Assembly (NCBI GenBank): GCA_031763025.1
Contig: JASSKH010000001.1
Coordinates: forward strand, 9,357,024-9,421,023
Source of the DNA: Macrocystis pyrifera
Lineage: Eukaryota; Sar; Phaeophyceae; Laminariales; Laminariaceae
Direction: 5' to 3'
Length of the DNA: 64,000 nt
The notes beneath the pieces were generated by a model that was given only the letters and a program-made list of their open reading frames with translations, had not been told where the DNA came from and made no database searches. Below are positions 5,371-59,045 of the stretch, piece by piece. The first letter of the stretch is position 1, and every line of letters begins with the position of its first letter. A program made the position numbers and the translations under genes.

Positions 5371-5420
5371 TTAGGACGTCAAGGAGTCGTCAAGTGGTCA
5401 GCAGTCGTTGAGCCTGTGCG

Positions 5421-7660
<2,240 letters not shown>

Positions 7661-10020: not shown

Positions 10021-10176
10021 ATGTCCCGAAATCGCTTGGCAGGTGCAGGAACTGGGACCGGGGGAGCAGCTAATGTGTTCGGAGATATTGCGAGAGAGTA
10101 CGCATTTGGAAGAGTTGCAGCTTCGTCTCGAAAAACTTACGAGGCGAATTGGAGGATGAGGGTGAGCTGGTGATCG

Positions 10177-11911: not shown

Positions 11912-11978
11912 TTCCCGCCCACCCTCCCGCAACAATTTTCCACGGCGGATGGGCAAACGGAGGGGAAGGAGACACAGT

Positions 11979-12925: not shown

Positions 12926-13063
12926 ACGAAGAAAAAAAATCGAAAGAGAAAAAATACAACGAAAAAAGAAGAAAGAAAAATGTCGTGCCTCCCAAGGTTT
13001 TTTAGTAAGAGAGATGCGTTGGATAGATCAAACAATATTATGCTGCTGAACCAGATGTCAATT

Positions 13064-22757: not shown

Positions 22758-23182
22758 CTACTTGGCCGCCTTCCCGATTACTACGTCCAGTCTTTGTTCA
22801 ACAGCACCCAACCGCGCATCGACGAGCGTCCTCATCCGTTCCTCTATCTCGGCCGTCTTTGCAATCAAATTTTGGTCAAATGCGTCAAGCTTGGTGCTCA
22901 AAATACCCTCGAGTTCGTTCTGCCTGGCCTCATCTCCGTTCTGTTTGTCGTTTCGACGCCCGTTTGCCTCCGCCGCATCCTCTACTTGCCGGGACAGATC
23001 CTCCGTCATCCGGATGAGGTAGGACTGCAGCTCAGCAATTGTCTCCTGCGTTGTCGCCTCCAGCCTGTTCCTCAGCAACTTTACATGTTCCACGGTCGTG
23101 CTTTGTGTCTGTTCACCGCGCCGCACGTAGGGATCACTCATAGGATCGTCCAGGTATCTCTGCAGCTCGCTAACGGGTAGGC
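22758..23182 (-). CDS. last exon of a coiled-coil protein, function unknown
   Basis: A terminal exon on the minus strand. A good 3' splice site (GTTGTTGACAG) precedes 23,182. The exon supplies two bases and then 140 codons to a TAG at 22,758-22,760, so upstream exons must exist at higher coordinates; I could not identify them. The protein starts LPVSELQRYLDDPMSDPYVRR and then forms one long charged amphipathic helix with heptad-like spacing (segments HVKLLRNRLEATTQETIAEL, IRMTEDLSRQVEDAAEAN, IEERMRTLVDARLGAVEQRL), ending KAAK. An internal methionine (MSDPYVRR) could also start a short protein. The helix suggests an oligomerising or scaffolding role, which is inference. I do not recognise the family. 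It sits in a repeat-rich area and has no plausible partner gene next to it. Confidence 0.55.
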
Positions 23183-25965: not shown

Positions 25966-26541
25966 TCACTGACCTCTATCTGCCTTTTTTAGCACGACCA
26001 CGACTACGTCTTCGCGCCCATCTTCCGGCACTTGGGTGGTGTAATCGTTCTGGTGCTGAAGAAGCGTAGGTTTGGACTTTTCCACCGTCTTCGACCTGTC
26101 CCTTCCGCGACAGCGCACTCGCCCGCGCCAGTTTCCCAACAGATGGACAAGCCTCCATATCCCCTCAATACCGCTCTTGACCCACAGGACGAGTAGCCAG
26201 AACGGAGCTACCACCGTGCAGCAGACCACGGCAAGGAGTACCCTTATGACTTTCCCCATAAGCGGTTTATCTGCGGACGTCCGCCAAACCACGTTGACGG
26301 CCTTTAGCACTGATGCAGTCCACAGCAGCCATCCCGCTGCTACAGCGATGGGCCCGAGAATTGTCCAGAACACGGCGCGCCCGACGACGCGCTTGGTGTC
26401 CTTGTAGAGCGTGGTGGAGAAGCACAGGTCAGCTACGAACATCGGGGAGCTGACAATCAACTGAAATAAATTAAATGGCGCCGGAAGGTCGTCGAGCTCG
26501 ACCACGGATACGTAGTGTCGGATTAACCGCGCCTTGGAAAC
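25966..26541 (-). CDS. channel exon 16: TRP-like post-S6 segment, two extra helices, C-terminus
   Basis: The exon follows a 3' splice site (GATCGAACCAG) and runs 191 codons to TGA at 25,966-25,968. Its first residues, VSKARLIRHYVSVVELDDLP then APFNLF, continue the preceding exon's DENADQEFK and match the conserved region after S6 of TRP channels (charged DE..E.K, KARL, then LP.PFN). Two strongly hydrophobic stretches follow, around GRAVFWTILGPIAVAAGWLL and KVIRVLLAVVCCTVVAPFWL. They are not part of the standard six-helix channel and would add two membrane passes or a hairpin. The tail is basic and then acidic and looks disordered. Confidence 0.85.
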   Translation of the reverse strand, partial: VSKARLIRHYVSVVELDDLPAPFNLFQLIVSSPMFVADLCFSTTLYKDTKRVVGRAVFWTILGPIAVAAGWLLWTASVLKAVNVVWRTSADKPLMGKVIRVLLAVVCCTVVAPFWLLVLWVKSGIEGIWRLVHLLGNWRGRVRCRGRDRSKTVEKSKPTLLQHQNDYTTQVPEDGREDVVVVVLKKADRGQ

Positions 26542-29500
26542 CTGGTTCGATCGATCATTTTTCATGGTGCAGATGGCGGGTATTCAACGAAGGGTGTGAG
26601 CGTATGGCGTTTACCGTTCCTGACGTTTCGATTCCTGATGACGTTCGTCCCTGGTCTGATATGCGTCTTTCGCATACGTCATCGCGATGGCTTGAGACGA
26701 AGTTACGATGCGTGTACTTCGAAAGAGTAGGCAAATATTCTACATCGTCTTGTGTCGTGCTCCCATCTTACTGCCCTTAAACGCCATTTGTAGGCTCCGG
26801 CAAGGCTGGAGAGTGCTATCATTTACTCGATGCGATGCGGTGCTTACTCGAATTATAACGTCCACATTGCGCACGATTTGTTTTGAACGCCGCCAAATCT
26901 GCAATACATGGCCGTACGTGCATCTGCATATTCGCAGTCGGCAATTCACTCCATTGTACCCCCCTCCGCCAACTTCACAACTGCGATTCAACACCTGCCA
27001 CTATGTAGAGCATACATGTGGAGGTGCGCTGCGGTCTGGTTTGACAACGTAATTCGAGACACCTGACCGACCTTGAATTCCTGATCGGCGTTCTCATCGA
27101 CCTTGGCGTGTGCGGTGGTCAGCACCGCGACGAGGAGGTTGAGCATCATGATGGTAAGGATCACGAGGTACATCACCAAAAGCGCTGTCGCTATGGATTC
27201 AAACTCCGTACCGGCGAACTCGTCGAAGAACTCCGTCTCGCCGATCATGGACCTGAACACCTCCGTCCATACCTGGGGTGATCGAAAGGCGGAGATCAGA
27301 TAACGTTTTTTATCCCATCAAAAGGGACACCACCCATGATACAACGAAAGGTGTGACGCTGCCGAATGTGATCGCTTCAGACCGTCCGTGCCACCACGTT
27401 GGCACAGGTGACCCCTTCCCCTCGGGCACAACAATGCGTTGCGCATTCCACACGGGACAACAGACAATACATGCGAAAAAGACAGAATACTTCACCTAGC
27501 GCACGTTGGGATGCTGTTGACACCCTCACCTCTGCGAAGGTCAGGTTGTCTCTTAAGATGCAATAAAAAGACAACACGAAGCCACTCATGACCACGAGCA
27601 TCACCACTCCGAACTTGATCAGCTCTCCCATCAGTGAAAATATTGCCTTTCCCAACGTCGACAGCGAGCGAGGTGTGGGCGTGAGCATAGTGAAGGTCAA
27701 CAAGATGAAAAATACAATGTATGCCCTGCGACGTGTTGTCAAAATATGGGAGCGGTTGTTAGCCACACAGCCACATGCCTGGTTTGAACGTTTCAGGCGT
27801 CGCGAGCGATCGAATATGCTTGACGCTAGAGGCCATCTCTGCGGACGTTTGGGCTGTGTTTACGGTAATATGTTGATCTCTGTCTTTCTGAACAGACGTT
27901 AGGCTTCACTATCTTCCTCCGCCTAGGTTTGTGCACGACCGTGTGTTGGCACCCAGGGAGAGTAAATCTCTACGGATTCCATCCCCGCGCAAGAGAACCC
28001 AGTCCCTGCCCTGCACGGAGGTTTGTGTGTCAACTCCGTCTAATGTCCAGGCGCGGCCTGACCGGAACCTACAATGTTGGCCGTCATCGGCCACATTCAT
28101 GGCGGCAGAGGCCGAAGAATTCATCAACCACTTCCTCCAGATTGATGATTCCAAGCCTTCGGCGCCGAAATTCATCCATAGTAAGCAGCGCGTGAGGCCC
28201 TTAGCTCGTACACCGACACCATCCACTGTCGTTAGCGGTTTCGGACAATCAACCCTAACTTGTCCATTTTAAAGCGGTACGCACGCTGGTTGCAAATGTT
28301 GTGGATGGCCGTATGGCTGTTCTTTCGGCGTCCGAAATTGACAACCAGGTAAAAATGTGTGCTACACAATTCAACGAGTGAAGGATTCACGTGAACACCT
28401 ACGCGTACCTCTAGCCGAGAGAGTTTCCGAAGTCATACCTTACGCCTCTAGCAGCAACGCAGGTGCGCGGGGAACAGAGCCAGCCACAACAAAGCGGATA
28501 TCCAACCCAAACATTACCGACCGAATCTACAATAATCTACCGTCCACAATCAGTTTTATTATGTAGGCGACAATTTCTGAATCCAACTGTGCCACCGTCA
28601 CCGCCCTGTCTGATGGATAAGCCGCCGCCGCCCTGGTTGCTGATCACCTGGATCATGGGTCCCTGGGAGGGGAGTATCTGGGCGAAGAACAAGACCCTAG
28701 AGACAGCCAGAGGTGCGCTCAGGGCGTACATCGATCTCGCTTCGATGGAGTGGACGTCCCGGGCATACCCAAAACACAGGCTCGTGAACATGAGGAAAAG
28801 ACTCGTTACATCAAGCACATTCCATTTGTCACGGGCGTACTCCCACGGTGCTGTCACGATCTCTTGTACCTCTGTCTTGATAGCTCCCTTTTTCAAATCG
28901 TGATGTAGGTTACAACCAAGGGACGAAAGAGGGGGGCGGGCAAGGGACGGTACGGGAGGAGTCCAGGGTGAGCCAAGTGCAGGGGTCAGGTCAAGCACGC
29001 CATGTGCCTCTGAGCACCAACACCGTGGTGTCGGTGTGTATGAAAACGGTAGCAGTGTGACCCCTGCTGCAACCACGCTTAACTAGACCCGCCGGACTGG
29101 AATTTCCGCACAATTTGTCGTCCCTTTTCGTCGGTCGGTGCGACTAAGGGGGAGAACGTTATTCGATGACTTTAAAGCGAAAGAGGCAAGGAGCAGGGTT
29201 GGTTGGCAACTTTTCAAACAACCATCCTGATGACTAAACGGTGCAAACTAGGTATTCTGGGCACGAAGCGGGGCTATTATTAAGCTAGGTCAACGTTCTA
29301 AAACGACAGATGCGGGTAGTGCTGTTGAAGCTAAAACAATACCGCACCCTCACATTCTCCAGGAATCGCCTGCAGACTGGTGCACACCAAATCTAATTCC
29401 AAGATGAACTACAAAAGGGAGCACTCACGATGATGTAGAAGGTGAAGACGATATGGGCCCAGTGAAAAACCCCTTCGTCGTTCAAAAGTACGAAGCCTCC

Positions 29501-32500
29501 GAATATAGCCATCATGAACAGGTATGTCACTAAATGGAGCACCATCCGCAGTACTGGTACCTATGGCGAAATACGTAAGATTGAGGGGGTGGTGGCGGAC
29601 GGGTCCGATCTAATGGGTTGCTCACGATAGCGAAAATCTGCGATACGAAACGAAGAAGCGTCCGTATCAGGACTCGAGCAAAAGTTCTGATGTGCGGCAC
29701 TTTTGCACGTCTCCTTGGAGCGATCTCGGGCGGCAGCCCAATCCGTGTCTAGTCGCCGATGAAATATGATGAACTACATCGTGTATGGTTTCTTGGGTTG
29801 GTGTTGGGATGGGTTGGATTAGGATTGGATGGGTGCCTCGACGATCGTTGCCGCCCTTTTGTTTCACTAAGATCACGCTCACTTCTGGGGTAGCGTTTCC
29901 ACCACGAGAACAAGCGGCTTCAGCGATGGGAACATATCTACATGAGGCGTTGGACCCCATTCCCCGTTCGTCCTGGATGGAACATGACATAGCTCACTTT
30001 ATAGTAGTTACTGGGTCGTGAAAGGATTCCGGCGATGATAAACCTCGCCCCCGGAAGGTAGGTGATACTCGATAGCTTGCTTCCTCCGTAGCCTCTCTGC
30101 AGCGCCATCCCAAGAAAGATGATCGTACCATCTGCGAGCAAGCCATTGCCTGAACGAGCAAGCGCGAACAACAAAAATATGTTACTTTGTTTTATCAATC
30201 CGCCCGAGGATAAACAAAACACAATGAAGACGAGAAAATCAAAACAAAGTCGAGTTCGTTGAGAGGGGCACCGAACGAAACTTCTACGCACCGCGGTACG
30301 GTGGCCATACAACGACGACATGTATTGAGTTGGGGCAGAGTTCATTGTCCTCGGAAAGTGCTTAGTCGACGCGGTATTTAAGTGACGGACGCGATGATTG
30401 CCATATCGACATTGCCTAGTAGTCGTACGCTTAATATGAAACCAATGACAGAGTCAAACCCAGATATTTTCCTTCAGAAACGCAAACTTCGTCTTGTACT
30501 TTCAGACACAACTTGTGATATGTGCGGTGGAGCAGCTTCGCGGTACTTGCCGTACAAGGTCTGCCCGGGGTTTGAAAGCTCAGCGTTGTTCTCCAGCACC
30601 CCCTCTGTGTCTCGCAAGCTGGGGAGACCCTTCGTAAACTTGCGAGACATGAAGTCCAGCACCAAGGGAAGCGTGCAGTAAGTATCCATCTGTTGGCGCC
30701 TTCGGAGGGCTACGCCAAGTGGCCCCACCGTGCCCTTGTGCGTCGAAATGACGGTTTCGGGCTCGAATACCGCTGAGCATGACTTCATCCCTCCCTCCAA
30801 ACCCCTCACAGTCTGCGGCAAGTGCTCAAGCACCTCAAGCAGCAGCTCGTCTACGGCCGCCTGCGTGCGTCGAGTTGAATTCCGGTGTTGAAAACCGATG
30901 TTGTTTTTGTGCTTGATCGGTAACATTACTCGTCCTGCATGCGAGTGGTGCCAACCGGCCCCTCGAGGCTCGAGGGCGAATTGACGACCACACTGGGTTT
31001 GTGGGAAGGGGCTGTACACGTCGGCTTATAGCGCCCGAACGCCTGAGAACCCTAACACGAAACACGCCACAACCTAGGCATTTCACTCCTCCACACTTTT
31101 CCTTTGTATCCCCCGACCCACCTAGTCAATCCCCGATTTCCAACCGATAACAAAGCCAGCGGCCAACCCAGTATAAACAGCAAGATATCGGCCAACCTGC
31201 ATCGAGAGCAGAACGCGTTTCTCTCCCTCGACGGATCTTCTTGCAGCCACAGCGAAGGCGGCGGAGAGGTTCATCCCCGGAATAAACGGGTTGTTAGCCG
31301 ACGACACAGCTCCTAATATATTCTCCTACAAACGCCGACAAGAGGGGTTAGGCAAGGGATATCGAACGCTCGGCGAAGGCGACAAAAAGAGAATGGTCAA
31401 GAGAACGGGATGACAAAGCGTCTGGAATTTCAATAGCAAAAATAAGTGAAACAAGGCAATGGCTAAAAGCGTTCAAGTAGTTCCTGCTTCAAGCGGGAAC
31501 GTGCACGGTGAGGAAGGTGCTGGAGATCAGGGGTGCAAATACGCACGAAACGAGGGGTCCGTGTTCACGAACAAGAGCCCGAAACATAAAGAAGCTAATC
31601 GAGAAACGAATGCCTGTATTTCCATCCGATTTCCTAACTATTTGGGGTTCCGTCATGTTTTTCTTGAGCGTCTGGTATCGCAGCGCAGCGGACGAATACC
31701 AAACGATATACCAGTATGAATAATATTAAGGCAAGGCCGAGTGCGAAGTCCCTCATTGCAAGATCTAATGACCCCGCCGGCAGTCATTCGTGCCCTAGAG
31801 CAAGACCGAGGAATCACCGTGGGAGGTATTGTCTCAATGTACTGGTCGTGTGAGATCGTACGCGCATTGAGCTGGGTTAGATATAGATCACAATCCAGGG
31901 ATCAATCGTGAATACGCGATGATGAATGCGGTACTTTGGTCGCACTTCTCAATGCTGCACCGTATTTCGCCTAGATCTTGCTTCAACACCAGGTGTAACG
32001 GAACGTCACCAACGTCGACTTCAGATCGTCCACAAAATCACAATGCCGGTCGACACCGACACTGTCAAGAATATGCCATAGACACCCTTACTCTCGGAGC
32101 CCTCGATCACCCTCACACAAGGTGTGTTGATCTGCACGAAACCCTAGGGACATAAGAAACGTTCGGTCGACGTTCTAGCTTACCCTACAGTACAATAGTC
32201 CGTCAGTAGAGTGCTCTCGATTGTTGCTGTTCTCTCACACATATTTCACGTTGCCAATACACCTCGGTCAACGGCATCAACGACTGCGCCATGCAATCTG
32301 AACGTGGCGCGCTCGGTTGGGGCTCTGACCTCACCTAGGTTCCCTGTGTTCACACCATTGCGGGTGACACTTGGCGTGCGCCGGGTAGCGGTTGATCTAA
32401 TATATATTTGTTATGGCCGTGGTGTTTGCAAAGTAGAACACACAGATTGTCGACCGCTTTCGAGAACAAAAATCTCGACGTTTTAGTCAAGAGCGAATGA

Positions 32501-35500
32501 CACTTCCGGTAGCCTCTCATCTCCTAGAAGACAGATGACCATACAACCCTTCGTGTATGTCGTCTCATTATTTGTATAGGTGTTGCCCGACGCCAATCCG
32601 ATTGACGGCATGTTGCATATATTCGAAGATCGAAGGACTCGCGTGACATGAGCTATCGCACCCTGTCTGTGATTTGATTTCGCCATTTTCGACGATGACG
32701 CCTCCTCGCTCGGTCTAACCTCGCTCTTAAAAATGGGCATATTTTACCGTTGCCGATAAAGGCTTTCGTTCGTCATCCAAAGCGCAATCGGTGAAGGCAC
32801 AGCTGAATTTATGTCGTAGCATCTCAAGTATATATAATAGTTCAGACAATGACCAACTACTATACATTCACACTACGAGGCAATGAGCAGTCTATATTCT
32901 AACAAGTTGCAGAGTGCGTGTGTTTGAGCTGTGTACTAAAATTATCGTAAACGATTTCACTGTACTTCCCGTGAATACGATATGCACTGAAACTACCATT
33001 ATCGCCCTACTAGCCACTACTGCAAGCTCTTGGGGCACATGCCTACCGAGAAACTAAACACACATGCGACACGGTGCTTCCTTCAAGTTATGAAACTTGG
33101 CATGAAGTCGTAAGTGTAGCACCACGGGCGAAGACGAATAACGAAATCAACGACGGAGAACCGGACAAACCTTTAAGCGAGGAAACGATGTGCGCGTCGA
33201 TAGCCGGATGATGTCGAGAGTCCCCGGCTTTGCGCCGAGCTGCAGCAAGTACGATATCACATCAAGTAGCTCGCGGTCCACCTGATGGTCGCACCCAACA
33301 GAAAATTAATCGAGCAGCTTGGACTGAAACGTTTAAAATCGACGAGCATTGTTCACGGGCAGCTCGCGCATTGTACTTGTTTCTAACGAGTATATACGAC
33401 TTCACAAACGGATTTGTTTACCGTCGTTTGAGACATAGCGGTGTCGACAGAGTGGGCGAATTGAATTGACGCAAGAGTTATCCATTGAACAGGAAACCTC
33501 TTGCAGGCGTTTGATCTATCAGGCGGTGGATTGTACCAACAATCAGATGAATGGTTAGCACACGCATCCATCACCAACGTATTTGGTAAGCAGATTGCAG
33601 ACCGGCGTTTAATGTATTAGGCATAACACTTATGGCCACGGTGACGGAGGCAGCAGCAGCGACGCAAAAACGCTGTCGAATACCGCTTCTCCCGGGAAGA
33701 GCCACCGCATGATGATTTCGGCCAGATGCGAGGCAAAAGACTTTGTTTATTAGTACTTTCACACACAGAGATATCCGGACTTGATAAAACCCAAGTATAC
33801 ACACACAGCCCCGGCCCCGTTAGAGTCTGCCACTCCACGTCGGGTTGTCAGTGCTCGACCAATTCATTGTCTAGGGGTGACTGCTTGCCCGATCTTAATG
33901 AGTTTCCCAGCTTGAATATCGTTGTTATTCAGGCGGCGAAATGTACGAGCAGTGGCGTGCTTGTCTCGGCTTGATCAGTACGCTGTTAACCCAGTGTTTC
34001 GTGTAAGGTGGAGAATGATGCTACGCCTCGATAGGTGACAAACGTTAGGCAAAATCTTCCGTGTAGATTTGTTTTTCAGACTATGACTGGGGGTGAACGC
34101 CTACACGACCCAAGCACAGCCCGCGTTCCTTTAACCCCATGTCACGCTGGGCCAACGAAGTGCGCGCCATGTGGCCACCTTGCTCATAATCTATTCCCTG
34201 TCAGCCACGAGCGTTGGGTGCTTCGCGCCGAACGTTCGAGAACCATCAACCAACTCGTCGTTTGAAACAAACGTCCCTGGATATATCAAACGTAGGTTAA
34301 CTGCTCTTGTCCACTCACCGGTGTGCGAAGATTGGCACAGCAAGTGGCTAAGGATGAGCTGTACTCGCCCAACATCTTTGTTTGTTGCACGTGTTTGGCG
34401 AGTCAACGAGCCGTTGAAGTCGTCGAAGGTGACGAAGAAGAAATTTCGGATGCGATTGTAGCGTCCATTGGTGTGGAACCAAACAGGACCAAAACCGGAC
34501 ACGCCGTACCGAACCGACGACCCGAACCAAGCCGCAACATGCCGGACCGGTTGAAAGAAAGTTAGAGTGGAACATAGCACAACAGACTCGGCAGAAGCTA
34601 TAGTAATCAAAATAAGGCACATCCGCAGACGAGGAAACAGTGGCGGGGGAGCACTTGTAGGTGAACCGGCTTATCCTGTGAATCAACCGACTATGCAGCT
34701 AGGCAATCAAGCCCCACTCGTTTGACATCGATGTACGCTTGCTACCCGCCACCACATTGGAGGAACACGGTATCGTCTGGTTCGTCCTTTGCCTGCTTTT
34801 CGTCCGGGAACAGGCAACACTCAGACGGCAACAGACGGCAGTTACACAGAACATCTCCCCGCCTTCGTAGATTCAACGCCCAAAACCAGCAACACAATAC
34901 TCTTATCACAACAACATGGGCACCAAACACACCACTCACGCATAGCCGGTGCCATCAAGGGTTGCAGCCCACTAGTAGGTTCTGATCCCCAACCATCTGC
35001 AACATACGACTGACAAATAGACCAAAGAAACCCAAGCCCATACCTACTAAAAACGAGATACCAAGCAAGCAAGGAAGACTCCTCGCCAACCAAATTCGAC
35101 AAATCTTCCAGACTCCACCTTATTCCCCCGCAGGTGTATGTGGAAAACGCATTGTGCTATGAAACCCCGCGCGAAACGACACGTTTCAATCTTGCAGTAC
35201 CTGCCGTATATAGAGGTACCTGTCTACACGAATAATTGAGTAGCAAATGTACCACAATGAGCTTAAGTTTGCTTCGGTTAAATGATACCCTCCGGCGCGA
35301 ACAAGGCGTACAACTCCACGAACATGGCGAAACCACAGTTTTGTCGTTTATGGGAGCAATGTATTTGTCTGGCATTCCCGGCGCACACAAGTACTAGCAA
35401 CGATGCGATGAAGACGATACGACGGAGTACTACTACAACGCACCTGGGGGGCGGAAATATGACGGGCCATCGACGTTGACACAATTCTGACAATCTCCAC

Positions 35501-41312: not shown

Positions 41313-41354
<42 letters not shown>

Positions 41355-47300: not shown

Positions 47301-50300
47301 GAAGCTCGGTCACGCCTCCGATTGAGCAATGGTTGTAAATGAGCACACGGGTTGGGGAGTCTACGCGGGAAGTTTAGCTGCAAGACCGTCTCAGCTGAAG
47401 ACTGGCAGGTGGAAATAGCGATTGACGGTCAAGTTCCATCGAAGACAAAACGGGGAAGACAGTTTATAATCTTCCAACTATACTGAGATCCCCAGCGATG
47501 TCTACATTATTGATCCCCCCCCCTCCGCATGTCTGACTAATACCAAACCTATCCAGTGAAGCAATCAGGACAAGCTCCTCTCCCACAGGCATCCTGCCAC
47601 GCGAAATCTGAAGCAGGTTACGCCACGATCACACGACCGATAAGACACTACCAATTTTGAATATGATCTGTCTACGTCTGAACAGCTATCCGCGGACTCT
47701 GGGGTTGTTCTCGCGAGTGCGAGTCCGTTTCACCTTTCCCCTCAACAGCACGATCTTCATGGCTCTGTTGAAGACTCCCACGTTCCCGCTCTTGGCCGCC
47801 ATCCTAATGAGACAACGAGCTTCCACCGCTTCTACTCCTTCCCAATCCTTGTCCTTGGTTACCTGCCGACACCAAGCGAGGTGGACAACATGTATGAAGA
47901 TGCCCAGGAAGACATAACTGATGTTCCCACATGTCCTGCGTACCCCACGAAATATCAATTGCTTATCCATACAGGTTTATAGGTGGCATCGGTGTACCGC
48001 CCAACGTTCGGACTATAAACTTATATCTCACTCACTGAGTCGACGACACACACTTGCATTCTCAATGCGGTGAGTGGCGTTCACGTTTGTTGTCGGGATA
48101 CGAAGACCTGGAGCTCGTTCTATTCGTCTGCGAAACAGGCGCGGCCTCTGGGCGTGCGCTGTCTCTCTCTTTTACAGTATCCTACGTTCCTCCCCTATTC
48201 TTCGCTCTGAGGCCAGAGGGTATGGCGACGTATCGTGGGTGACAGAAGCATTTACGTTGAATGCTTGTTTCGCTCGGAACTCGAAGCGTAGGGTTCCTAC
48301 CTGAAGAGCATCCAGCTCTCCCCCCGAGAGGCATGTTGTGATTCTGTAGGGGCCTAGTTAGGAAACTTTTGACATTGGCGGAATAGTCGAATCAGCACCT
48401 GACATTCGACAAACGAGGCCCTAAACAGTCGAATGCATGTACAGCGACAAACCAGCACGCGTCTGGGGTGATGGTAAACGAAATTCAGGCCTCTCTAACA
48501 ACCCTCTCTTACTTTGGATTCCCCCCGGAAATAGTTGGCGCTGCATGAGGTATGCACCTTTGGTTTCGAGGTCCCGTCAAGACAAAGGCGTTCCAAGTCA
48601 CCATTTCGGACTTTCCCAGTATGTTTCCGTACCCGTTGATCTGCTGCAGTTCAGAATATCTCTACTGTTTCCCTCCAACGTTCAAGCCCGTCTCCGCCAC
48701 GCGACAGCCGTGGCATCAAACACAGATCCCGCGCTTTCATACTTTTTGCGCTGCGCAACGATTCGAGGACTTCCATCGACTATCTCCGCTGCCGCTCACC
48801 GCACCATCCCCGACCTACTCTCGGTATCGGAGTTGCCGAAGATATTTTGGTGTTGGTCTCGGTATTGCTGCAACGGCTGCTGCAGCTGTTTGTGCGGGTG
48901 CTACCGGAACGAAACCAGTCCACGCTCCCGCGTTGAATCGGATGAATGGCTCTCATCAACCCGCGCCGCTTACCTTGCCCCTCATGAGATTAACCACCTC
49001 CTCAACCACGGCGTCATTGCCTCCCTCAGCTGCTGCCGTCAACAGCGAACAACCATCCTCTCCGCTGGCCTCAATCAATTCAGCGACCTGTTTGGGGTCA
49101 CGAGGTATATACTGTTGTGAGACCGGGTTTGAAGGTACAACATTAATGTACTCTGCAGGGACCGCCTGTTGAGTTTTCACGGGGTGGAGACGACAGCTCG
49201 GGTCGGAGCGCCATCACGCTGCGGTCCCGGTGGCGTTCGGCCGACCTCAGTGAAAGCATTACCGTTTTCCGAGGCAAATACCTTGCTCGTGTGGGACGGC
49301 GACTACATCTCCATTAACCCTCGACACTGCGATAAACGTCGAGTTCACGCCAACGGGTGAAACGAGTGCTACGAGTTTATCCGTTGTGCTTTTTTCGACG
49401 GCGTATTTCCAGTAACAGCTTCCACCGACGCGGTCCCCACCATGACCACCACCACCACGACTACCACGCCGATCCTTACAAACCACCACCACGGCAATCG
49501 CAACTACCACCAGCAGTACCATCACAATCACCAGTAACAACACCATCGCCAGGAAAGTGCATACATATAGCGAAATGGCCGGGACTAATAGGCAGCGTGA
49601 CGTAAACGGCCAGGCTATTCCACCACTGCGGTATACAAATGAAAATCATTGACGGCGACAGGAAAAGACAAGGCAGCAGAATTTTACGCATCTCGCACGC
49701 AACGAGGTGTTGAGATGTCTGAAAGTTGAGTGCCTGTTGCCCCAGTGTTTTTTCCGCGGGTGGTTGAGTTGATTGTGCCTAAAACACATAGTGTTAATAG
49801 CTTCGGGAGGTTGGGGCGTTTCCAGTCATTGCTAGACGTTGCTACTCATTGCACCGCATCGTACAATGCGAAAATGATAGTGTCTTGGACGAACTTGATG
49901 TGACTGGAGGCCTTTAAGCAGAAATCTGTCACCACCTTCTCTATCTGCTGGCGTTGATGTAGAGGTCTAGACGAGATGTACGGTACAACTGTTTATACGA
50001 TCTGCTGCCGGCTCCCGTAGCACCGCTCCGGCTGTGATACGAACTGTCTGACTTGAGGTAACCAGCAGCTTGGTCTCGTCTAGGGACGAAGTTGTAGAGC
50101 CCTACGTCATTTCCGGGGGCTGTAAAACACGCGCACTCCGGTGCAATACACTGCCTTCAAAGCTGATTATCGCCCATATCCGTCAGATGAACGGCTGATA
50201 TACTAGCACTACCATTGAGGACGGGTGCCAGTAAACGTGCATGCCCAAACTGCTACCGAGAATATAAGCAGTGACTGGTTAGTCCAACGGCCACGAACGT

Positions 50301-53300: not shown

Positions 53301-56300
53301 ATAGGAGGAAACCAAGAAGAGATGATGTCCGCCGGGACGTTTGGGAGGTACCAGGCAGAAGTAGAAGAAAGGATAGAAAGAAGGAAAAGGCTAGCGCTAA
53401 TAAACAAGGTGGAATCGGAAAAAACACTTGGAGATATACGGGGGATTGAGGGAAGGACTAGGAATGAAAACGTATTTGCATGGCCCAATGGACTTCGCGA
53501 AAACGCTGAAACTGCGCTTTCGTGTAGGGGACCCGGACCTGCCAGAAAGAAGAAAGAGGTACACCAGTAGCCGGGAGGAGGAGGACGTAGACGCACAGAT
53601 GTGCCCGTGTGGCAAAGCAATATAGAGTAGAACTCACATACTAGGAGAATGTGAAATATACAAGGAGGAACGGGATGTGCTAGAAGAGGAGATGAGGAAA
53701 ATAGACGAATGTGACATGGAGGAGTTTGATACAATGAATAGCAGCGAGAAAACAATCGCTATCCTAGGAGATAGATGGTGGCCACAGGAGGCCAAACAGG
53801 AAGGGGATACGACTAGCAAAAGGTTTCTATGTAATGTATGGAAACAACGTAATGAGCGCCCAATTGTTGGAGGTGTCTCTATTAGGAGTAGGAACGGTGC
53901 TCGGTCTCGAAAGGGATGCGTGGTCAATGGTCCAAAGACTAAGGCAAGCAATAAATGAGTACGCCCGTCCCCTTCCCCCCCCGTCCCCTTTTTTTGCTTT
54001 TGTTTTTGTGGCGGTTACTACCGCTGGCGGTTAAGTTAGATCACCTTTGTGCGTGGAGAACTTTTACTCCGCACGAGGGGGATGATTGTATCACACAACA
54101 CAGTGTGTATATGATGAGGCGCTCACGAGGGAGTGAAATAGTACACCCATTGCTGTCTCTGGAAGTGGCCGCACCAGACATTAAATCAATTCATTGATGC
54201 TGTCATCCATATGCAAGAAAATCCGCCTCTAAAGCGGTTTTTAGTGGGATGCAGCTCACCCTTCATGCATATTTCTCACCCCCCCCCGGCGCTTCGCCAT
54301 TGGTGCAAGCAATGTCTGCCTGGTCGATGAAAATCCAACGTGCTCCGTCCGGGATGCGAGGGTCTATGGCCATACGACTACTGCCATGCATGATAACGAG
54401 TACGCCCCCCCCCCCCCCCCCCCCCCCCCCCCGTCTGATCCTACGCCTTCGGTACGCACCAGCATGCATCGTTCTCAATAAAGCCCCTCCCTCCTCCTTC
54501 TTCCCGCTTCACGCTCCCACTCTTCCTTCACCACAAAATAAACCCGTAAGGCGACGCCCCTCAAACTAGGTCCTAAATCACATATCAACCATTTTTAGTT
54601 GGCGCTCATATCTGATTCAATCATCTTTTTCGCAGACCCCTCGGCGCGACACCCTCCTTAGTATATACCTGGTATATATAGGTTGGGTTAGCGTTCGTTG
54701 GCGACGACGCTGAAAAGCACGCGTCTCGCTGCGTGACATAGACTACAAGGATACAGTTTTATTTTTATTTTTCGGCGGATACCACGGCTGGCGGTCAACG
54801 TTGATCATTTTTGTGCGGGGAGAACCTTTACTCCGCACAAGGGGGATGATGGTATCACGTGGTGTGTATATGGTGAGGCATCCAAGAGGCAGTTATATAG
54901 TAAACGCATTGCTGTCTCTCGAAGTGGCCACACCAGAATATATATCAATTCATTGATGCTGTCAACCATATGCAAGAGCATCCGCCTCTAAGCGGTTCTA
55001 AGTAGGATGCAGCTCACCCTTCATGCGACTCTCCCAACACCTCACGGCTCTTCGCGCTTGGTGCAAGCAATGTCGACCTGGTCAGTCAAAACAAAACCCG
55101 ACGTGCTCCGTCCCGACATTGTAGGGACGCGAGGGTCCATGGTCATACGACTACGGCCATGCATGATAAGGAGTACACCCCCCCCTCGGCGCGACAGCGA
55201 AATAAAGGGCTACCTTCCCCGCATGTCCCACCTTATCCTCGGTCAAAGTTTCCCGGAGGCATCGAAGAACGGCGTGGAACATCTCCACATCTCCATTGCG
55301 GGCCGCCAGCATGATGATGGTTTCCACCTGTCGGCTGCGGTTGGTGCGCAATGCTGACAGCTGATTTGTTGCCTGCTCCTTCCCGATGATACCCACCACT
55401 GCCCGCACTGCACTGGGATCACCGCTTTCAACTGCTTCGAGAATGGTAAACATATCTACGCTACCAGGACCTAATGAATTCCAGCGGATGTGGCGAGGGC
55501 GCACCCAGGGGCGGGGTTGGGGGAGTGTGGTCGGGGGTTGGAGGAACATAATGGGGGGCGTTTTCGAGTGATTGTTCGCAGTCGGCTGTTCTGAGTAACT
55601 TTGGTTATAGTCAGTCGGTAGAGCACGTAGAAATGGATGCACTGGACTAGCACGAATGTTCTTCAATCACGCTACCGCGTAAGCTGAAGTCCCCGGCAAG
55701 CTTCAACCAAAAACCGTGCACAGGGTTAGTTGGGAAGCGTTTGGGAGCTTCATGGCTGACCCAGCACGTGGGATGCTGGGAACCACTCGGAGGCGGAACG
55801 AATGTTACCCTTGACAATACCCTTTGCTGCATTGCGTTGGTGAATTTTTCTGTGTTCAGCGATTACAATGCAAGATGGTGCAGCGACGCCGACTCCGACT
55901 TACGTGTTGGGGGTGTGTGCTTTTGATCCTTGCCGCCGGCTTCGTCGACGGTACTTGGTCCTGAAGCCAAACAAGGGGACATCCCACGTCGAACCCAGGC
56001 AGAAAAACACACAATGAGAAGCCAGTTAATTGTCTGTTGCCGGGGTTGAAACGGGTAAAATCGGAATATATACCAACGTCACCACATCTGGTGTGGTGCA
56101 GCGGTGCATAGAGCGTGTGTTTTCGTTAAGTTTATTCGGGCAGAGAAAGGACACTCTAAGTATCAAATATGTAAGTATCATATTCATAAACCAACCGTTA
56201 TTTAGCGAGAGAGCTGGTGTACGACGGCAAGGAAACGAAATGAAGTGAGGTTCGCAAATAGTCTAGACACTAAGCCGTGCTTACGACTCGAGATAACCGT

Positions 56301-59045
56301 CACTCCTCCTACCCCTCAAGGGTGGGACCGTTCTCGTGATCAATATAGGATGCCAAGGCCGCGAGAGGCACAACGGCCCGGTCGAATATTTGTTTCTGGT
56401 CTCTCTGCCAGAACCGGCGTCGAGTTAGCCTACACGACTTTAAACGCAGACCAGCGACGACGACAACCATGGCAGGAAGACACGCCGCTCTTTATGGCGA
56501 GAACAGCCGCAGTGTGTCACAAACATCTTGCGCCGGCGCCGACCAACTGTACATTATTTCGACCCTGAAATTCACACCAAGGAACCGTTGTAAGGGCGGA
56601 GACAGGAGCGAGAGGGGGGGGTTAGATCATTTTCACCTCGGCTCATTACGGCGCATATCATGGGCTCACATTGTACCACCTCCCGACGACCAGCGTCCGT
56701 TAGTGAGGTGGGTGGGTGTGGGGACTACGCAGTTGCGACGGCCCCGCGATGGGCGAGTCTTTCACCACCAATACTCTCGCCCGCTAACAGCGACGGTTGA
56801 CGTTTTGAATGGGAGAATTGTACGTGTGCGCTAAACTCGCAAGACATTGCCGCTGTAAAACAAGTAATGTACATCTCCTGTCTACATCCTGCAAGAAAAA
56901 GGGGGGAGCATCAGCGCCGGTCACACGGCGTGGTTCTTTCTAGAGGAAACAACAGAAGTAATCAACCGAAGAGTGGTAAACCCATAGGTTGTATCAGCGG
57001 CAGGCCCCGAGACATGATCAACCAATAGGAGGGGGCGAGGAGTATAGACTCCGGATGACCAGGTTAATCATATGCGGAGCAGCAACGTTCGACATGGGGT
57101 AGCTTGACACCAATGCAGTTGTGTTCAATATCTCCCGATCGCATACACTATAGGACACTGTTGGGGCGATAGGTGGTATCGTGATTCATGTTCTGCCCAG
57201 AAAGCCGGGGGGGGGCGGTTTGTGCTTGTGGGTCTATTTCGGGCCGCGTCGCCCCAATTTCCCTGTTGCGACAAGCGTTATCCGGCCGGCGCGAAGTTTT
57301 TCTTATAGTATGCTAATTCGACCGACCCGTGGATCCTCTCGGGCATTTCGGTTGGGACATGCGATGTTCCCTCTTGAGGGCGCCACTCTTCCAATCCTCT
57401 TACCGTGCATTCGCATTTCTACCATCGCCAGCGACGACGAAATCGTGTTGCCGCATCGAATTGGGCACAGCCATCACTATTTATGTCATTCGCTGATCGT
57501 TCACCTACCTTCCGCAAGCTTGGCCGTCTGAGTGGTCATTGGTATGGCGTCGAACTCAGCTGTCGTCCGTCCCTTTTGGGCGTGGTCCCAGAAGATATTC
57601 GCTGCCCCCGCAAAGTTTTGCGTCTTGACATCCGCGTCCTTCTCTTCAATCGGCGCATGCCGTACGGATTTGCCCTGCGTTCCGATCGCCGTAGCCCCGG
57701 CCTTGCTCGCCTCGTCGCCCTCTACTGACCCACTTGTCGCCTTGCTGAGACGCATCGCAGCACTGATCACTTCCTGCCCACACTTCACCGGAGGGATTCC
57801 AGACCCCACTGGTTCACGTCGAACCGTTGCCAGTCTTTGCGATGTTCCCCCTAGCGAAGACGTGTCAGCATTACCCCTATCATCCGTTCGGCTAACACGA
57901 CTTCGGGGAGCGTTTGCCGGCATGTTTAAGAGGCCACACTTGATATGACGTTTCCTTCCGGTTTCCTCCTCAGCTCCAGCCGCAGCAGCCAGCACGACAC
58001 CGACGCTTTTCATCGAGTGTGCTGGTATCCGTTTGGGCGTCGCGCTCCTGTCTTGCTTTGCATCTTCCACTGTCGTTTCATCTTTCGCGGCCGCTACCAC
58101 CGCTTCGGCCGCAAACCCGATAATGCTCTTCATCGGGTAGTCAAAGGTTGCCATGGGTGTACAGCTGCGGTCTTGCCCCTCTTCTTCCGCATTCCAACGT
58201 GGGATGGATATCTCGACGTCGCCATCAGCCGAGGGGAACAGCGAATACGAGTCGTAGTTCGGCCTGCAGTCTTCGTCAGGCTCTGGCGGCGGAGGCGGCG
58301 ATAGCTGCGGTGACTGCGGCTGCAACTGAGTTGAACGTTGCGGCGAAGCGGTTGCTGGTCTGGTAGCCTTTCTAAGGCCTTTCCCTGGCACCCCAGACGT
58401 CACCTCGCCCCCCCCAGCTCGGAAAGTTTGGTCGGAATGCTCTTGAGGCATTAGCGAGGTCTTACGAGAAGGGCCCACCTCCGCCGACGTCATGATCCCT
58501 GCCGCTGCTTCCAATTCTGCAGCGATCGTCGACGGCATCAGTATTGGCGATAGTGGCGAAGTGTTTGCCGTCATCAAATCGGCGGGGGCAAAGGATACCG
58601 CCAATTGGTCACCCAACCCTTGCACTAGTTCCACCTCCGCCGCCACCGCGGCACACTTTGCCGCCGAACCCCTATACTCCTGCTGATCGGGTGTATTCAC
58701 TTTTTCTGACACTCGACCTTGCATCTCGGGCCCGGAAACGGCCGAAGCTATAGCTGACTGGGTCTTACGGCTGGGGGTGATTTCTGGGCTGCCAAGGCCG
58801 AAGTTCCACGCACCGGAACCAAGCTGCGGCGTCATCGTACTGGCCGTGGTAAACATCGACATGCTACTGGAGCTGTGAGAGACACGGATACCTTGCATTG
58901 AGGATCCTACAGAAGGATATTCTGGGGAATGGTGGCGCAGCACGGTCGCGGCAGAAGTGCGGAGTGAACCATGAGAATTAGACGAAGTGTAATGGCTGCG
59001 GTAGGTCCGATCGGGTTGGCTGCCGCCTTCTGCAAGACGTCCCAT
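25966..59045 (-). CDS. TRP-family cation channel with disordered N-terminus and ankyrin-like repeats
   Basis: This is my reconstruction of one minus-strand gene with at least 16 exons: 59045-57509, 55470-55232, 49087-48974, 47862-47734, 46179-46042, 45664-45527, 35569-35444, 33281-33171, 31312-31197, 30860-30547, 30094-29998, 29560-29429, 28887-28648, 27646-27530, 27272-27072, 26541-25966. Nearly all borders are clean GT-AG and reading phases match at every junction except between the exons at 33.2 and 31.3 kb, where one exon of length 3n+1 is missing. The product exceeds 1,440 residues: about 512 disordered residues, ankyrin-like repeats, a pre-S1 linker, six membrane helices with a pore loop, a TRP-like segment after S6, and two extra hydrophobic helices. 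It should be a plasma- or organelle-membrane cation channel whose cytosolic N-terminus senses or anchors. The channel half is firm. Whether the exons right of 35 kb belong to the same transcript is probable but unproven because a 10-kb gap separates them. Long introns hold the LINE and other insertions. Confidence 0.75.
27072..27272 (-). CDS. channel exon 15: pore loop and S6
   Basis: The exon has 67 codons, phase 0 at both ends, acceptor ATCACCCCAG and donor AAG|GTCGGT. It begins VWTEVFRSMIGETEFFDEF, a pore helix plus an acidic selectivity-filter-like GETE segment, as in TRP and polycystin channels. Helix S6 follows (ATALLVMYLVILTIMMLNLL), then VAVLTTAHAKVDENADQEFK, the family signature after S6. 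The two acidic residues of the filter suggest cation and possibly calcium permeation; this is inference from the family. Confidence 0.92.
27530..27646 (-). CDS. channel exon 14: S4-S5 linker and S5
   Basis: The exon has 39 codons, phase 0-0, with acceptor TTGGGAAAG and donor GAG|GTGAGG. It reads AIFSLMGELIKFGVVMLVVM and continues SGFVLSFYCILRDNLTFAE. Placed after exon 13 it gives GPMIQ-AIFSLMGELIKFG, the usual linker into S5. A longer upstream frame exists but would insert a foreign segment in the linker, so this acceptor is preferred. Confidence 0.88.
28648..28887 (-). CDS. channel exon 13: S2-S3 loop, S3 and S4
   Basis: The exon has 80 codons, phase 0-0, donor CAG|GTGATC. It includes APWEYARDKWNVLDVTSLFL, the conserved W-N-(L/V)-(L/I)-D entry to S3 of TRP channels, then FMFTSL, and an S4 with VSRVLFFAQILPSQGPM. 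The S4 has only sparse positive charge, so strong voltage gating is not expected. The acceptor (TTTGAAAAAG) has a weak pyrimidine tract and is the least certain border of the channel core. Confidence 0.85.
29429..29560 (-). CDS. channel exon 12: S1 and start of S2
   Basis: The exon has 44 codons, phase 0-0, with acceptor TTTCGCCATAG and donor ATC|GTGAGT. It reads VPVLRMVLHLVTYLFMMAIF, GGFVLLNDEG, then FHWAHIVFTFYII. The order of a proline-led amphipathic entry, a hydrophobic S1 and the start of S2 matches TRP channels. Confidence 0.88.
29998..30094 (-). CDS. channel exon 11: pre-S1 segment
   Basis: The exon has 97 bp, with donor AAA|GTGAGC. It reads GYGGSKLSSITYLPGARFII then AGILSRPSNYYK, leading straight into VPVLRMV of the next exon. 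The start was set at 30,094 rather than 30,096 because exon 10 ends with two bases of a lysine codon, so the junction then reads YGK-GYGG in frame. Confidence 0.75.
30547..30860 (-). CDS. channel exon 10: linker between repeats and membrane domain
   Basis: The exon has 314 bp, with acceptor CACGCAG and donor GGCAA|GTACCG. It encodes AAVDELLLEVLEHLPQTVRG, a central EPETVISTHKGTVGPLGVAL segment, and LDFMSRKFTKGLPSLRDTEG, ending in NPGQTLYGK. The leucine-rich start resembles the last helices of an ankyrin stack and the rest corresponds in position to the pre-S1 linker of TRP proteins. No separate domain is recognised. Confidence 0.75.
31197..31312 (-). CDS. channel exon 9: possible repeat or linker
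   Basis: The exon has 116 bp, with donor CAG|GTTGGC and acceptor ATATATTAG. It encodes AVSSANNPFIPGMNLSAAFA then VAARRSVEGEKRVLLSMQ. The A-F-A-V-A-A pattern followed by a helix fits the repeat modules in spacing. It starts with two bases of a split codon, which requires an as yet unseen exon to its right. Confidence 0.5.
31640..32800. other. intron sequence, exon not found
   Basis: Between channel exons 8 and 9 phase requires an exon starting in phase 0 and ending in phase 1. Candidates looked at include a minus-strand hydrophobic stretch at about 31,650-31,770 (FALGLALILFILVYRLVFV) and a frame at 31,905-32,145, but neither has both splice sites in the right phase, so none is called. Confidence 0.4.
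33171..33281 (-). CDS. channel exon 8: ankyrin-like module
   Basis: The exon has 37 codons, phase 0-0, with acceptor TGCGACCATCAG and donor AAG|GTTTGT. It reads VDRELLDVISYLLQLGAKPG then TLDIIRLSTRTSFPRLK. The LLDVISYLLQLGAKP stretch has the helix-turn pattern of an ankyrin repeat (V..LL..GA.P). Confidence 0.65.
33600..35280. other. intron sequence, nothing supported
   Basis: Short ORFs on both strands without family motifs; no repeat array or structured RNA is evident. On the present model this is intron between exons 7 and 8. Confidence 0.4.
35444..35569 (-). CDS. channel exon 7: ankyrin repeat
   Basis: The exon has 42 codons, phase 0-0, with donor CAG|GTGCGT and a long pyrimidine tract before the acceptor (ACGCAAG). 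It contains KDLHGNTALFYATKSGVVEI, the best canonical ankyrin repeat in the window (D..G.TAL..A...G), then VRIVSTSMARHISAPQ. Confidence 0.8.
37262..38393 (+). pseudogene. possible plus-strand gene or relic, function unknown
   Basis: Several plus-strand stretches have a protein-like composition: an ARVQQAGALESVYKNDVECP segment (37,268 onward), QQLKDMQSKLDATIRKQTNA (37,520 onward), INEHGFRLRVGVGGAYRSYD followed by KQCWVLAKANSEAQQQQYYQ (37,722 onward), and LREHDKEGFGDAGDVPTVLI with a stop at 38,392 (38,170 onward). They lie in different frames and I could not join them with convincing splice sites: the donor TAT|GTGAGC at 37,685 has no acceptor that keeps the next frame. It may be a multi-exon gene inside the intron of the channel gene, or a decayed one. 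The last segment ends exactly at the border of repeat R2. No family is recognised. Confidence 0.35.
38393..38948 (+). repeat. dispersed repeat R2, copy 1
   Basis: A ~555-bp unit repeated at 61,563-62,135. It starts CTCAGGGTGTCTTGG.TGGGC, passes through GGTTGGTCGATCGAGCAGGC and CGGGAGTGTTGACC, has an AT-rich second half with TCACTCTTCGGCCAATCAGA, and ends GTCCTCGATA.GATG. No open frame is kept between the copies, so it is non-coding. Confidence 0.8.
38961..39654. mobile_element. Tourist/PIF-Harbinger-like non-autonomous DNA transposon
   Basis: A 694-bp element bounded by TTA on both sides (38,958-38,960 and 39,655-39,657), the usual target duplication of PIF/Harbinger. Its terminal inverted repeats of over 40 bp begin GGGCCATTCCTAACGAAC on the left and GGGCCACTCCTAACGAAC on the complement of the right. 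Just inside lie several copies of a 13-bp palindrome, TCACGATTCGTGA, with variants TCACGATCCGTGA and TCACGAGTCGTGA, which are candidate transposase-binding sites. The ends are AT-rich but the interior (about 39,130-39,530) is GC-rich. No transposase is encoded, so mobilisation would need a partner elsewhere. Confidence 0.85.
39660..40650. other. intron sequence with a tRNA-like T-arm and CAG-rich words
   Basis: At 39,691-39,707 GTGGGTTCAACTCCCAC forms a perfect 5-bp T-arm with a B-box, but neither a D arm nor a matching acceptor strand lies upstream, so it is a tRNA remnant at most. Further right there are scattered CAGCAG words. No gene is supported. Confidence 0.45.
40715..40750. repeat. 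GTAC microsatellite
   Basis: About five GTAC tetranucleotides in a row followed by GGGTACG. A second short run lies at about 41,087-41,098. Each is close to one of two similar CGCTTCGC...CGCTACGCTCGCT segments (40,856-40,890 and 41,042-41,077), so the surrounding ~180 bp may be a diverged tandem duplication. Confidence 0.6.
41222..41833 (-). repeat. dispersed repeat R1, copy 2
   Basis: On the minus strand it runs from the GC-rich middle of R1 (CACACGAAACGG end) through GGGCTTCACGCAAGGCGGGC to GTGTTCCAATCAGG and GGGGACGGGGATT. The first part of R1 with its sub-repeats is absent. A 40-base A/T homopolymer (about 41,290-41,351) is expanded relative to the other copies. It shows the uninterrupted form at the place where copy 3 carries R2. 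Confidence 0.8.
41916..42101 (+). repeat. two-copy tandem repeat of 93 bp
   Basis: Copies 41,916-42,008 and 42,009-42,101 are almost identical and start ATAAAAGGAGGCGATTTCCA. The near identity means a recent duplication. It directly flanks R1 copy 2. No gene function is apparent. Confidence 0.9.
42130..45180. other. intron sequence without supported features
   Basis: Only low-level features: a short GCTAAAAGCC...GGCTTTGTCGTGCTG duplication at 42,140-42,232, a GGGT-rich stretch at 43,320-43,415, and scattered short ORFs. A minus-strand frame at 42,646-42,882 with GDRVFVGVTEGVV is suggestive but has no splice context. On the model this is part of the intron between channel exons 6 and 7. Confidence 0.4.
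45216..45323 (+). mobile_element. short inverted-repeat MITE, copy 2
   Basis: A 108-bp element with ends TTACGGGGGACC and GGCCCCCCGTAA. The interior words AGGACCTA.GGT, ACAC and AACCT.TAT correspond one by one to the reverse complement of the copy at 2897-3000. It lies in the intron left of channel exon 6. Confidence 0.75.
45527..45664 (-). CDS. channel exon 6: ankyrin-like module
   Basis: The exon has 46 codons, phase 0-0, with acceptor TTCCTGTAG and donor TCC|GTGAGT. It reads VLAGLASTAGSRRLSVLMVA, ADSGSVEAVTSVIKATSAAH, LGSNPS. The L.VLMVAADSGSVEAV core is aligned with the other repeat exons. Confidence 0.8.
46042..46179 (-). CDS. channel exon 5: ankyrin-like module
   Basis: The exon has 46 codons, phase 0-0, with acceptor TGTTTTGTCAG and donor AGG|GTGTGT. 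It contains DPTETSALAEAARGGSGAMI and ends MVDLLTEKR. It has the same length as exon 6. A further 19-codon candidate exon (46,388-46,332, IEPDIIRLFLQACNISSDD) lies just upstream with in-frame borders but a poor donor. Confidence 0.78.
47734..47862 (-). CDS. channel exon 4: ankyrin-like module
   Basis: The exon has 43 codons, phase 0-0, with acceptor GTGTCGGCAG and donor AAG|GTGAAA. It reads VTKDKDWEGVEAVEARCLIR then MAAKSGNVGVFNRAMKIVLL and RGK. The RGK end is shared with exon 3. Confidence 0.8.
48974..49087 (-). CDS. channel exon 3: ankyrin-like module
   Basis: The exon has 38 codons, phase 0-0, with acceptor CCCCAAACAG and donor AAG|GTAAGC. It reads VAELIEASGEDGCSLLTAAA then EGGNDAVVEEVVNLMRGK. 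An earlier acceptor (CCCTGCAG, about 49,154) would lengthen it by 22 codons. Confidence 0.8.
49100..50700. other. intron sequence with GGT/CCA-rich tract
   Basis: At 49,430-49,540 a CCACCA-rich tract on the plus strand gives a minus-strand frame that looks like a valine/leucine membrane helix plus a glycine-rich tail. It is low-complexity and has no splice or start support, so no exon is called. The rest up to the LINE has no feature I can support. Confidence 0.45.
50720..53960 (+). mobile_element. LINE (non-LTR retrotransposon), 5'-truncated and broken
   Basis: An APE-type LINE in the plus orientation, opposite to the host gene whose intron it occupies. It starts inside the endonuclease: NIYAPRVEEYDKDIQRKFGE, then VVLVGDFNSRIG (catalytic D-x-N box), and later DIGTTGHCLIWTD, which replaces the usual SDH box. 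The reverse transcriptase follows: VVVNLFKKGDKANPGNYRGI, EGQAGFRPNRS, FFLDVQKAYDTVWRNGLW (catalytic aspartate), VAQGCTFSPNLFKMYINDL, and LMFADDFVGI with the FADD box. A C-terminal cysteine/histidine segment (CPCGKA, THILGECEIY) lies near 53,600-53,660. Frame changes occur near 51,000, between 51,470 and 51,910, near 52,255, near 52,400 and near 53,570, and a TAG lies at about 53,620, so it is dead. The end is AATAAATGAG with no long poly-A tail. Confidence 0.9.
54000..55185 (+). repeat. ~420-bp repeat in two direct copies, period about 755 bp
   Basis: Copy 1 (about 53,990-54,415) and copy 2 (about 54,757-55,185) share TTACTCCGCAC, AAGGGGGATGAT, ATTGCTGTCTCT.GAAGTGGC, ATCAATTCATTGATGCTGTC and GGATGCAGCTCACCCTTCAT, and both end GAGTAC followed by a C run. 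Between them is a ~340-bp segment containing a 28-base C run (54,405-54,432). There is no gene. Copy 2 ends about 50 bp from channel exon 2. Confidence 0.85.
55232..55470 (-). CDS. channel exon 2: first ankyrin-like repeats
   Basis: The exon has 239 bp, with acceptor GAATTCATTAG and donor AAG|GTGGGA. It takes the split glycine codon from exon 1 and encodes PGSVDMFTILEAVESGDPSA, a hinge with RTNRSRQVETI, and IIMLAARNGDVEMFHAVLRC. It therefore holds roughly two modules, unlike the later one-module exons. The phase fit with exon 1 across a 2-kb intron is the main evidence for linking it to that exon. Confidence 0.8.
55700..57180. other. intron 1 sequence of the channel gene
   Basis: No exon, repeat or RNA is supported. 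Phase already matches between exons 1 and 2, so an additional exon is not required here. Confidence 0.45.
57509..59045 (-). CDS. channel exon 1: start codon and long disordered N-terminus
   Basis: The exon has 512 codons plus one base, starting at ATG 59,045-59,043 in a good context (A at -3, G at +4) and ending at donor GAAG|GTAGGT. The sequence is rich in Ser, Thr, Ala, Glu and Pro and has no recognised domain. It contains an internal duplication: EEEGQDRSCTPMATFDYPMK then SIIGFAAEAVVAAAKDE is followed by DAKQDRSATPKRIPAHSMKS then VGVVLAAAAGAEEE. The many S/T-P and R-x-x-S patterns suggest a phosphorylated cytosolic tail (inference). The competing plus-strand frames in the same place are shadows. 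Confidence 0.78.

Follow-up and report, generated by a model that had tools for sequence, protein, structure and literature searches.

A 17-exon kelp gene that very probably encodes an ankyrin-repeat cation channel subunit of the TRP superfamily

We describe a gene of the kelp Macrocystis pyrifera that is very probably a single 17-exon gene for a cation channel subunit of the TRP superfamily. The gene, hereafter called A, lies on the minus strand of the 64,000-nucleotide stretch of DNA that was analysed (the window; contig C189, 9357024-9421023) and extends from 59045 to 22758 in one frame of 1,596 residues with zero internal stops. The predicted protein has a polar tail followed by about seven ankyrin repeats, with one more that is partial, and then a linker, a six-helix TRP core, the TRP helix, a hydrophobic stretch and a part encoded by a C-terminal exon (Table 1). 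The splice sites rest on consensus, phase and comparison with paralogs. The junction phases agree throughout, 13 of the 16 introns being in phase 0 and the three phase-1 introns following exons 1, 10 and 16.

Fourteen exons were first called from the sequence of A itself and join in one frame, while exons 8 and 9 were located only via a distant paralog, F, and are conserved in the neighbouring copies B, C, D and E; with these two added, 16 exons lie within 25966-59045. A preliminary description made from the letters of the window had proposed 16 minus-strand exons joining in phase in this interval, and all of them are called here in one frame with support from paralogs. It had also given a protein of more than 1,440 residues ending at 25966; the exons were right, but the residue count and the 3' end were too short because the C-terminal exon 17 had been missed. 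The stop at 25966, which is closely preceded by a splice donor (the exon ends with base 25974), was rejected as the end of the gene, and exon 17 follows. Exon 17 resembles the C-termini of paralogs on C214 and of F and, weakly, that of a paralog on C195, and the genome search with it returned six matches, one downstream of each of the five copies A-E plus one on C214.

Table 1. Exons of gene A, with window coordinates, content and length comparisons
Exon	Coordinates	Strand	Content and evidence
1	57509..59045	-	residues 1-512, Ala/Ser/Gly/Pro-rich polar tail; 523-codon open frame; donor AAG/GTAGGT
2	55232..55455	-	two ankyrin-like repeats (N-cap and one more); 224 nt also in C and D
3	48974..49087	-	single ankyrin repeat, phase 0-0; 114 nt in A, C and D
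4	47734..47862	-	single ankyrin repeat, phase 0-0; 129 nt in A, 120 in C and D
5	46042..46179	-	single ankyrin repeat, phase 0-0; 138 nt in A, C and D
6	45527..45664	-	single ankyrin repeat, phase 0-0; 138 nt in A, C and D
7	35444..35569	-	single ankyrin repeat, phase 0-0; 126 nt in A, C and D
8	33171..33281	-	partial ankyrin repeat (VISYLLQLGAKP), phase 0-0; located via paralog F and also conserved across B-E; 111 nt in A, C and D
9	31197..31325	-	linker (SSANNPFIPGMNL), phase 0-0; 129 nt in A, C and D
10	30551..30860	-	linker; most conserved exon (80-88% in C, D and E); inferred GC splice donor G/GCAAGT
11	29998..30149	-	pre-S1; 152 nt in A, 134 in D
12	29429..29560	-	S1 and first half of S2; hydropathy
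13	28648..28887	-	rest of S2, S3 (WNVLD at start), S4; start set from paralogs; 240 nt in A, C and D
14	27530..27646	-	S4-S5 linker and S5; paralog match, hydropathy
15	27072..27272	-	pore loop (MIGETEFFDEF), S6, start of TRP helix
16	25974..26541	-	TRP helix (VSKARL...PAPFNLF), then hydrophobic post-TRP stretch, probably a helical hairpin
17	22758..23182	-	C-terminal tail with a possible rib helix and coiled coil; TAG stop codon at 22758-22760; 425 nt in A, C and D

At the 5' end, exon 1 begins at the first ATG of its frame, a putative start codon, and this frame is twice as long as the longest of 40 Markov-1 simulations of the interval (523 versus a maximum of 262 codons). By a score for which exons 2-14 of the first model served as training set, and which is circular for them, its codon usage is only weakly coding-like, and the frame is without a Pfam match. 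Exon 1 is conserved weakly upstream of exon 2 in B, C and D (24-30% identity, the weakest of the 17 exons). Its link to exon 2, the acceptor of which shows no clear pyrimidine tract, rests on phase, position and this weak conservation. Just upstream, on the same strand, lies a polar open frame of 204 codons (59713-60324), which could be an upstream exon, part of another gene or a chance frame; checked as a first exon, it gave no Pfam match and no codon signal.

Exon 10 of A probably ends at 30551 with a GC donor (30545-30551), followed by a GC-AG intron. The motif G/GCAAGT fits the GC-AG consensus, and the donor yields an exon of 310 nt, the length found in D; D and E carry GT at this site. 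The first model had ended exon 10 at 30500 with a GT donor, an end that was dropped because the paralog lengths favour the GC donor.

The identification of the protein as an ankyrin-TRP channel, which the preliminary description had also reached, is borne out by Pfam searches with the joined protein from exon 2 on, which returned Ion_trans (E = 2.4e-14 in A and 1.4e-11 in D) and Ank_2 (E = 4.5e-11 in A). The ankyrin repeats thus stand upstream of the TRP core in the same protein, the paralogs indicating one gene. Searching PDB chains with the core as a single sequence retrieved Inactive (1.7e-11), TRPC6 (2.1e-9), YVC1 (1.1e-8) and crTRP1 (1.3e-7), and a profile of four family members retrieved TRPC6 (6.3e-19), YVC1 (1.4e-17), the TRPM2 chanzyme (8.3e-15), Inactive (6.5e-14) and crTRP1 (3.7e-13). 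The profile matches together span S1 to the post-S6 PFNL segment; the alignment with TRPC6 consists of two stretches, from S2 through the TRP helix to PFNL, and places a TRP box and helix right after S6, where EFKVSKARL...LPAPFNLF of the kelp protein aligns with EWKFARAKL...LPVPFNLV of TRPC6. Hydropathy peaks for S1-S6 are all seen in A, and four of the six core helices are seen in D at the same threshold. The pore loop of A lies between S5 and S6, and all four aligned members share its G and E. The motifs WNVLD, GETE and PFNLF are placed as they had been assigned before.

The matches extend across TRP subfamilies and include TRPC, TRPM, Inactive and Nanchung (both TRPV), YVC1 and crTRP1. Membership of the TRPC subfamily was considered and rejected, as the TRPC-specific N-terminal Pfam domain, TRP_2, is absent among the matches up to E = 1 in A and D. 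A polycystin (TRPP/PKD2) was rejected likewise, since PKD_channel scores 10.4 bits in A, below its cut-off of 22.4, and is not listed for D.

In the genome itself, the channel core gave 51 exon-level matches at E <= 0.001, those of the window included. Four paralogs lie on C189 within 0.5 Mb of A, namely B near 9.48 Mb, C near 9.56 Mb, D near 9.66 Mb and E at 9.86-9.88 Mb, and form with A a local cluster of five neighbouring copies; F lies near 11.387 Mb on the same contig, and weaker relatives are found on C195, C214, C202, C192 and C219. The regions of B-F were retrieved for comparison of the exons. All 17 exons were matched in B, C and D in the same order as in A. For E, whose retrieved stretch contains 2,500 N, 13 of the 17 exons were matched within that stretch and exon 2 further upstream (14 of 17), and exons 5 and 6 were not found in it. 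Between A and D, 14 of the 16 exons from exon 2 to exon 17 are equal in length, and the remaining two differ by 9 and 18 nt.

These comparisons bear on whether the window holds one gene or two, one for an ankyrin-repeat protein that ends before 45.5 kb and one for a channel that starts after 35.6 kb. The interval between exons 6 and 7 invites such a division, as no other of the 16 introns of A reaches its 9,957 nt. However, C and D have 983 and 640 nt, respectively, at this place, the added sequence in A contains elements with further copies in the window and near the paralogs, and B, C and D keep exons 2-17 in the order seen in A. We therefore regard two genes as extremely unlikely and retain the single gene, as the preliminary description had assumed. 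A different concern is that A might be a decaying, nonfunctional copy of a channel gene. Several copies show signs of disruption: exons 8, 10 and 16 of B, exon 11 of E and exon 1 of D match in two frames, and in C no in-phase donor was found after exon 16 and no in-phase GT, by eye, after exon 10. The frame breaks and absent donors may reflect decay or assembly errors, and since frame breaks occur in several paralogs, part of the cluster may be decaying. A itself has introns filled with repeats and, after exon 10, a donor with GC in place of GT. Against decay, its 17 exons read through without an internal stop, the GC donor agrees with the GC-AG consensus and gives an exon length equal to that of D, and dN/dS between A and D lies below 1 in all five parts of the protein. 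Computed after Nei-Gojobori for exons 2-17, these values are 0.317 for the ankyrin part, 0.091 for the linker, 0.299 for the membrane part, 0.543 for exon 16 and 0.399 for the tail; the divergence of A and D has thus been under purifying selection, and a nonfunctional A is unlikely. The most constrained part is the linker, not the pore, which fits a role of the linker in coupling.

For a functional single-gene channel, the following mechanism can be proposed. Four subunits would assemble around a central pore, in which the acidic residue of the pore loop (IGE) would favour the entry of cations, probably Ca2+, to judge from known TRP pores. The cytosolic ankyrin stack, together with the strongly conserved linker (exons 9-10), would take up the stimulus, which could plausibly be osmotic, mechanical, thermal or metal stress, and the stimulus would be relayed via the TRP helix to the S6 gate. 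By analogy with what has been described for crTRP1, the hairpin after the TRP helix may dip into the membrane and the C-terminal tail may aid the formation of tetramers.

In exon 16, hydropathy indicates that hydrophobic stretches continue past the TRP helix. A single-sequence AlphaFold2 model of the exon has a low mean pLDDT of 61.7, with block means of 75-82 for residues 61-140, and contains helices at residues 49-88 and 95-147 of the exon. The hydrophobic helices resemble the crTRP1 post-TRP elbow in that they fit its position. Exon 16 alone retrieved no relative from the PDB sequences up to E = 10, and a fold search with the low-confidence model gave 13 matches, none of them at E <= 0.001. 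Among the best 60 of 197 matches of the profile search, the best stretch never lies beyond position 474 of the 728 in the profile, which leaves the post-TRP part and the tail unmatched within this set. The heptad pattern of exon 17 is not significant, its best value being reached by 41 of 500 shuffles.

The preliminary description had viewed the sensor as built from single-repeat exons. This holds for exons 3-7, which carry one repeat each, but exon 2 holds two and exon 8 a partial one. A profile built from the ankyrin exons of A gave 38-87 bits for their frames and at most 8.8 bits in 40 Markov-1 simulations; as this first profile is circular for its own seven members, we relied on Pfam and the paralogs instead. 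Profile scans of the window found nothing above 6.5 bits beyond the known ankyrin exons, although the profiles also missed exons 8 and 9, which were found by homology, so that a very divergent repeat could remain hidden. The repeats and the polar tail had been thought lineage-specific, and may be so: in this genome, no relative of the ankyrin exons at E <= 0.001 lies outside the five-gene cluster, and the tail is poorly conserved even in B-D. When 34 candidates were scored with the ankyrin query, all 25 matches at E <= 0.001 fell within the cluster.

Exons 3-9 are all in phase 0-0, and repeat units of this kind might be rearranged. One reading is that A is a diversified recognition receptor with shuffled single-repeat exons, like the brown-algal LRR-ROCO genes (PMC11378527). 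Such shuffling would be eased by the one-repeat exons 3-7 and by the phase of exons 3-9, which could be skipped or duplicated without loss of frame, and F and the C195 paralog may carry fewer repeat exons. F has a part resembling exon 2 (22% identity, E = 2.9e-4) and another resembling exon 8 (E = 1.5e-4), and by eye what lies between them seems to be a single short intron with clean splice sites; the C195 paralog has weak exon-2-like (E = 0.012) and exon-3-like (E = 0.19) pieces, followed by exons 8-12 in one open frame. The sequences suggest that the cluster genes may have more repeat exons than these two, in which divergent repeats were possibly missed. Yet the number and order of the repeat exons are the same in A, B, C and D, every exon finds its best match in B, C and D at the corresponding place in the series, no additional repeat exons were seen in the window, and the significant ankyrin matches are confined to the cluster. 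Constraint is, moreover, similar in the ankyrin part and the membrane part (dN/dS 0.317 versus 0.299), and the domain-wide value of the former argues against diversifying selection on the repeats. A shuffled receptor is hence very unlikely. Somewhat less remote, though still improbable, is that the ankyrin sensor is a cassette array in which exons 3-9 are gained, lost or skipped singly, since their common phase would leave the frame intact; if so, sensor length in the family would be adjusted one exon at a time, perhaps by alternative splicing within one gene. The reading that we prefer remains a single channel gene whose repeat exons keep their order.

Several other elements were seen in the window and the genome. 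Within intron 2, on the strand opposite to the gene, 50653-53570 (+) contains reverse transcriptase frames that appear non-LTR-like by eye, with RVT_1 (2.4e-11) at 52380-53567. An alignment of 2,057 columns joins 51960-53988 to a stretch in the region of E at 93% identity, which suggests that the intron 2 element was recently active. A repeat of about 310 bp at 39659-39967 is one of several elements enlarging intron 6; copies that are 76-87% identical occur in the regions of B, D, E and F (9 of the best 12 of 46 rows). Outside the gene, 5412-11166 (+) may be a DIRS-like or other tyrosine-recombinase retroelement, with an FMDD-like box and an HSGR...Y-type frame seen by eye; its frames at 7691-9157, 9404-10156 and 10174-11163 (+) gave no Pfam match. 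A Copia-type gag frame lies at 746-1585 (-), where Retrotran_gag_2 scores 27 bits, at its cut-off. A run of 108 G occupies 6069-6176 and is followed by arrays of 141/282-bp and 338-bp units at 11972-12635 and 13054-14056. Rfam gave 0 matches in the window at gathering scores. On C221, two clusters near 1.94-1.97 Mb and 13.53-13.55 Mb contain many Ion_trans exon matches and are perhaps multi-domain voltage-gated cation channels; a tblastn search of A against the retrieved Ion_trans loci, probably including these clusters (seven of the eight loci lie in them), gave no match.

A greatly expanded TRP family is reported for brown algae, with 51 members in Sargassum fusiforme (PMC11085791), and a part played by TRP channels in how Ectocarpus responds to copper has also been reported (PMC5907779). 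A is a fairly ordinary member of this sensor family, already known as large in brown algae. Among the papers listed by a literature search, with subscription journals mostly outside its range, none describes the layout of the gene, as judged by title and start of the abstract. The present analysis provides a full gene model, including the 3' exon, for one brown-algal member, together with its local cluster of five genes. The high copy number is what A and its paralogs share with the channels of the Sargassum report, in the main text of which the word ankyrin is absent (PMC11085791).

Among TRP channels of solved structure, the animal canonical channels TRPC6 and TRPC3 are close in the core, TRPC6 being the best PDB profile match with the shared segments EWKFARAKL/EFKVSKARL and PFNL, but the Pfam matches of A and D include no TRPC-specific domain, and the kelp pore has IGE. 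In overall architecture, the likeness is to crTRP1 of Chlamydomonas reinhardtii (PDB 6pw4), for which a post-TRP elbow that re-enters the membrane, a C-terminal rib helix with a coiled coil and a tail that helps tetramers to form are described (PMC6744473). In both proteins an ankyrin domain is followed by a helical linker, the six-helix core, the TRP helix, a hydrophobic post-TRP stretch and a tail, which is helical in crTRP1 and possibly so in A (PMC6744473), and the profile match to crTRP1 covers profile positions 180-454, from pre-S1 to the TRP helix (3.7e-13). The two differ in that four ankyrin repeats are described in crTRP1 (PMC6744473) and about seven plus a partial one are found in A, and in that the polar N-terminal tail of 512 residues is on the kelp side; beyond the TRP helix, the likeness is one of position and hydropathy only. 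With the brown-algal LRR-ROCO genes, A shares one structural repeat per exon. The exons of these genes are described as 72 bp in phase 2, subject to shuffling and alternative splicing and containing positively selected sites (PMC11378527), whereas exons 3-8 of the kelp gene measure 111-138 nt, are in phase 0, keep a fixed order and are constrained. In contrast to the shuffled repeat-exon genes of the same lineage, the layout of one repeat per exon thus persists here unshuffled.
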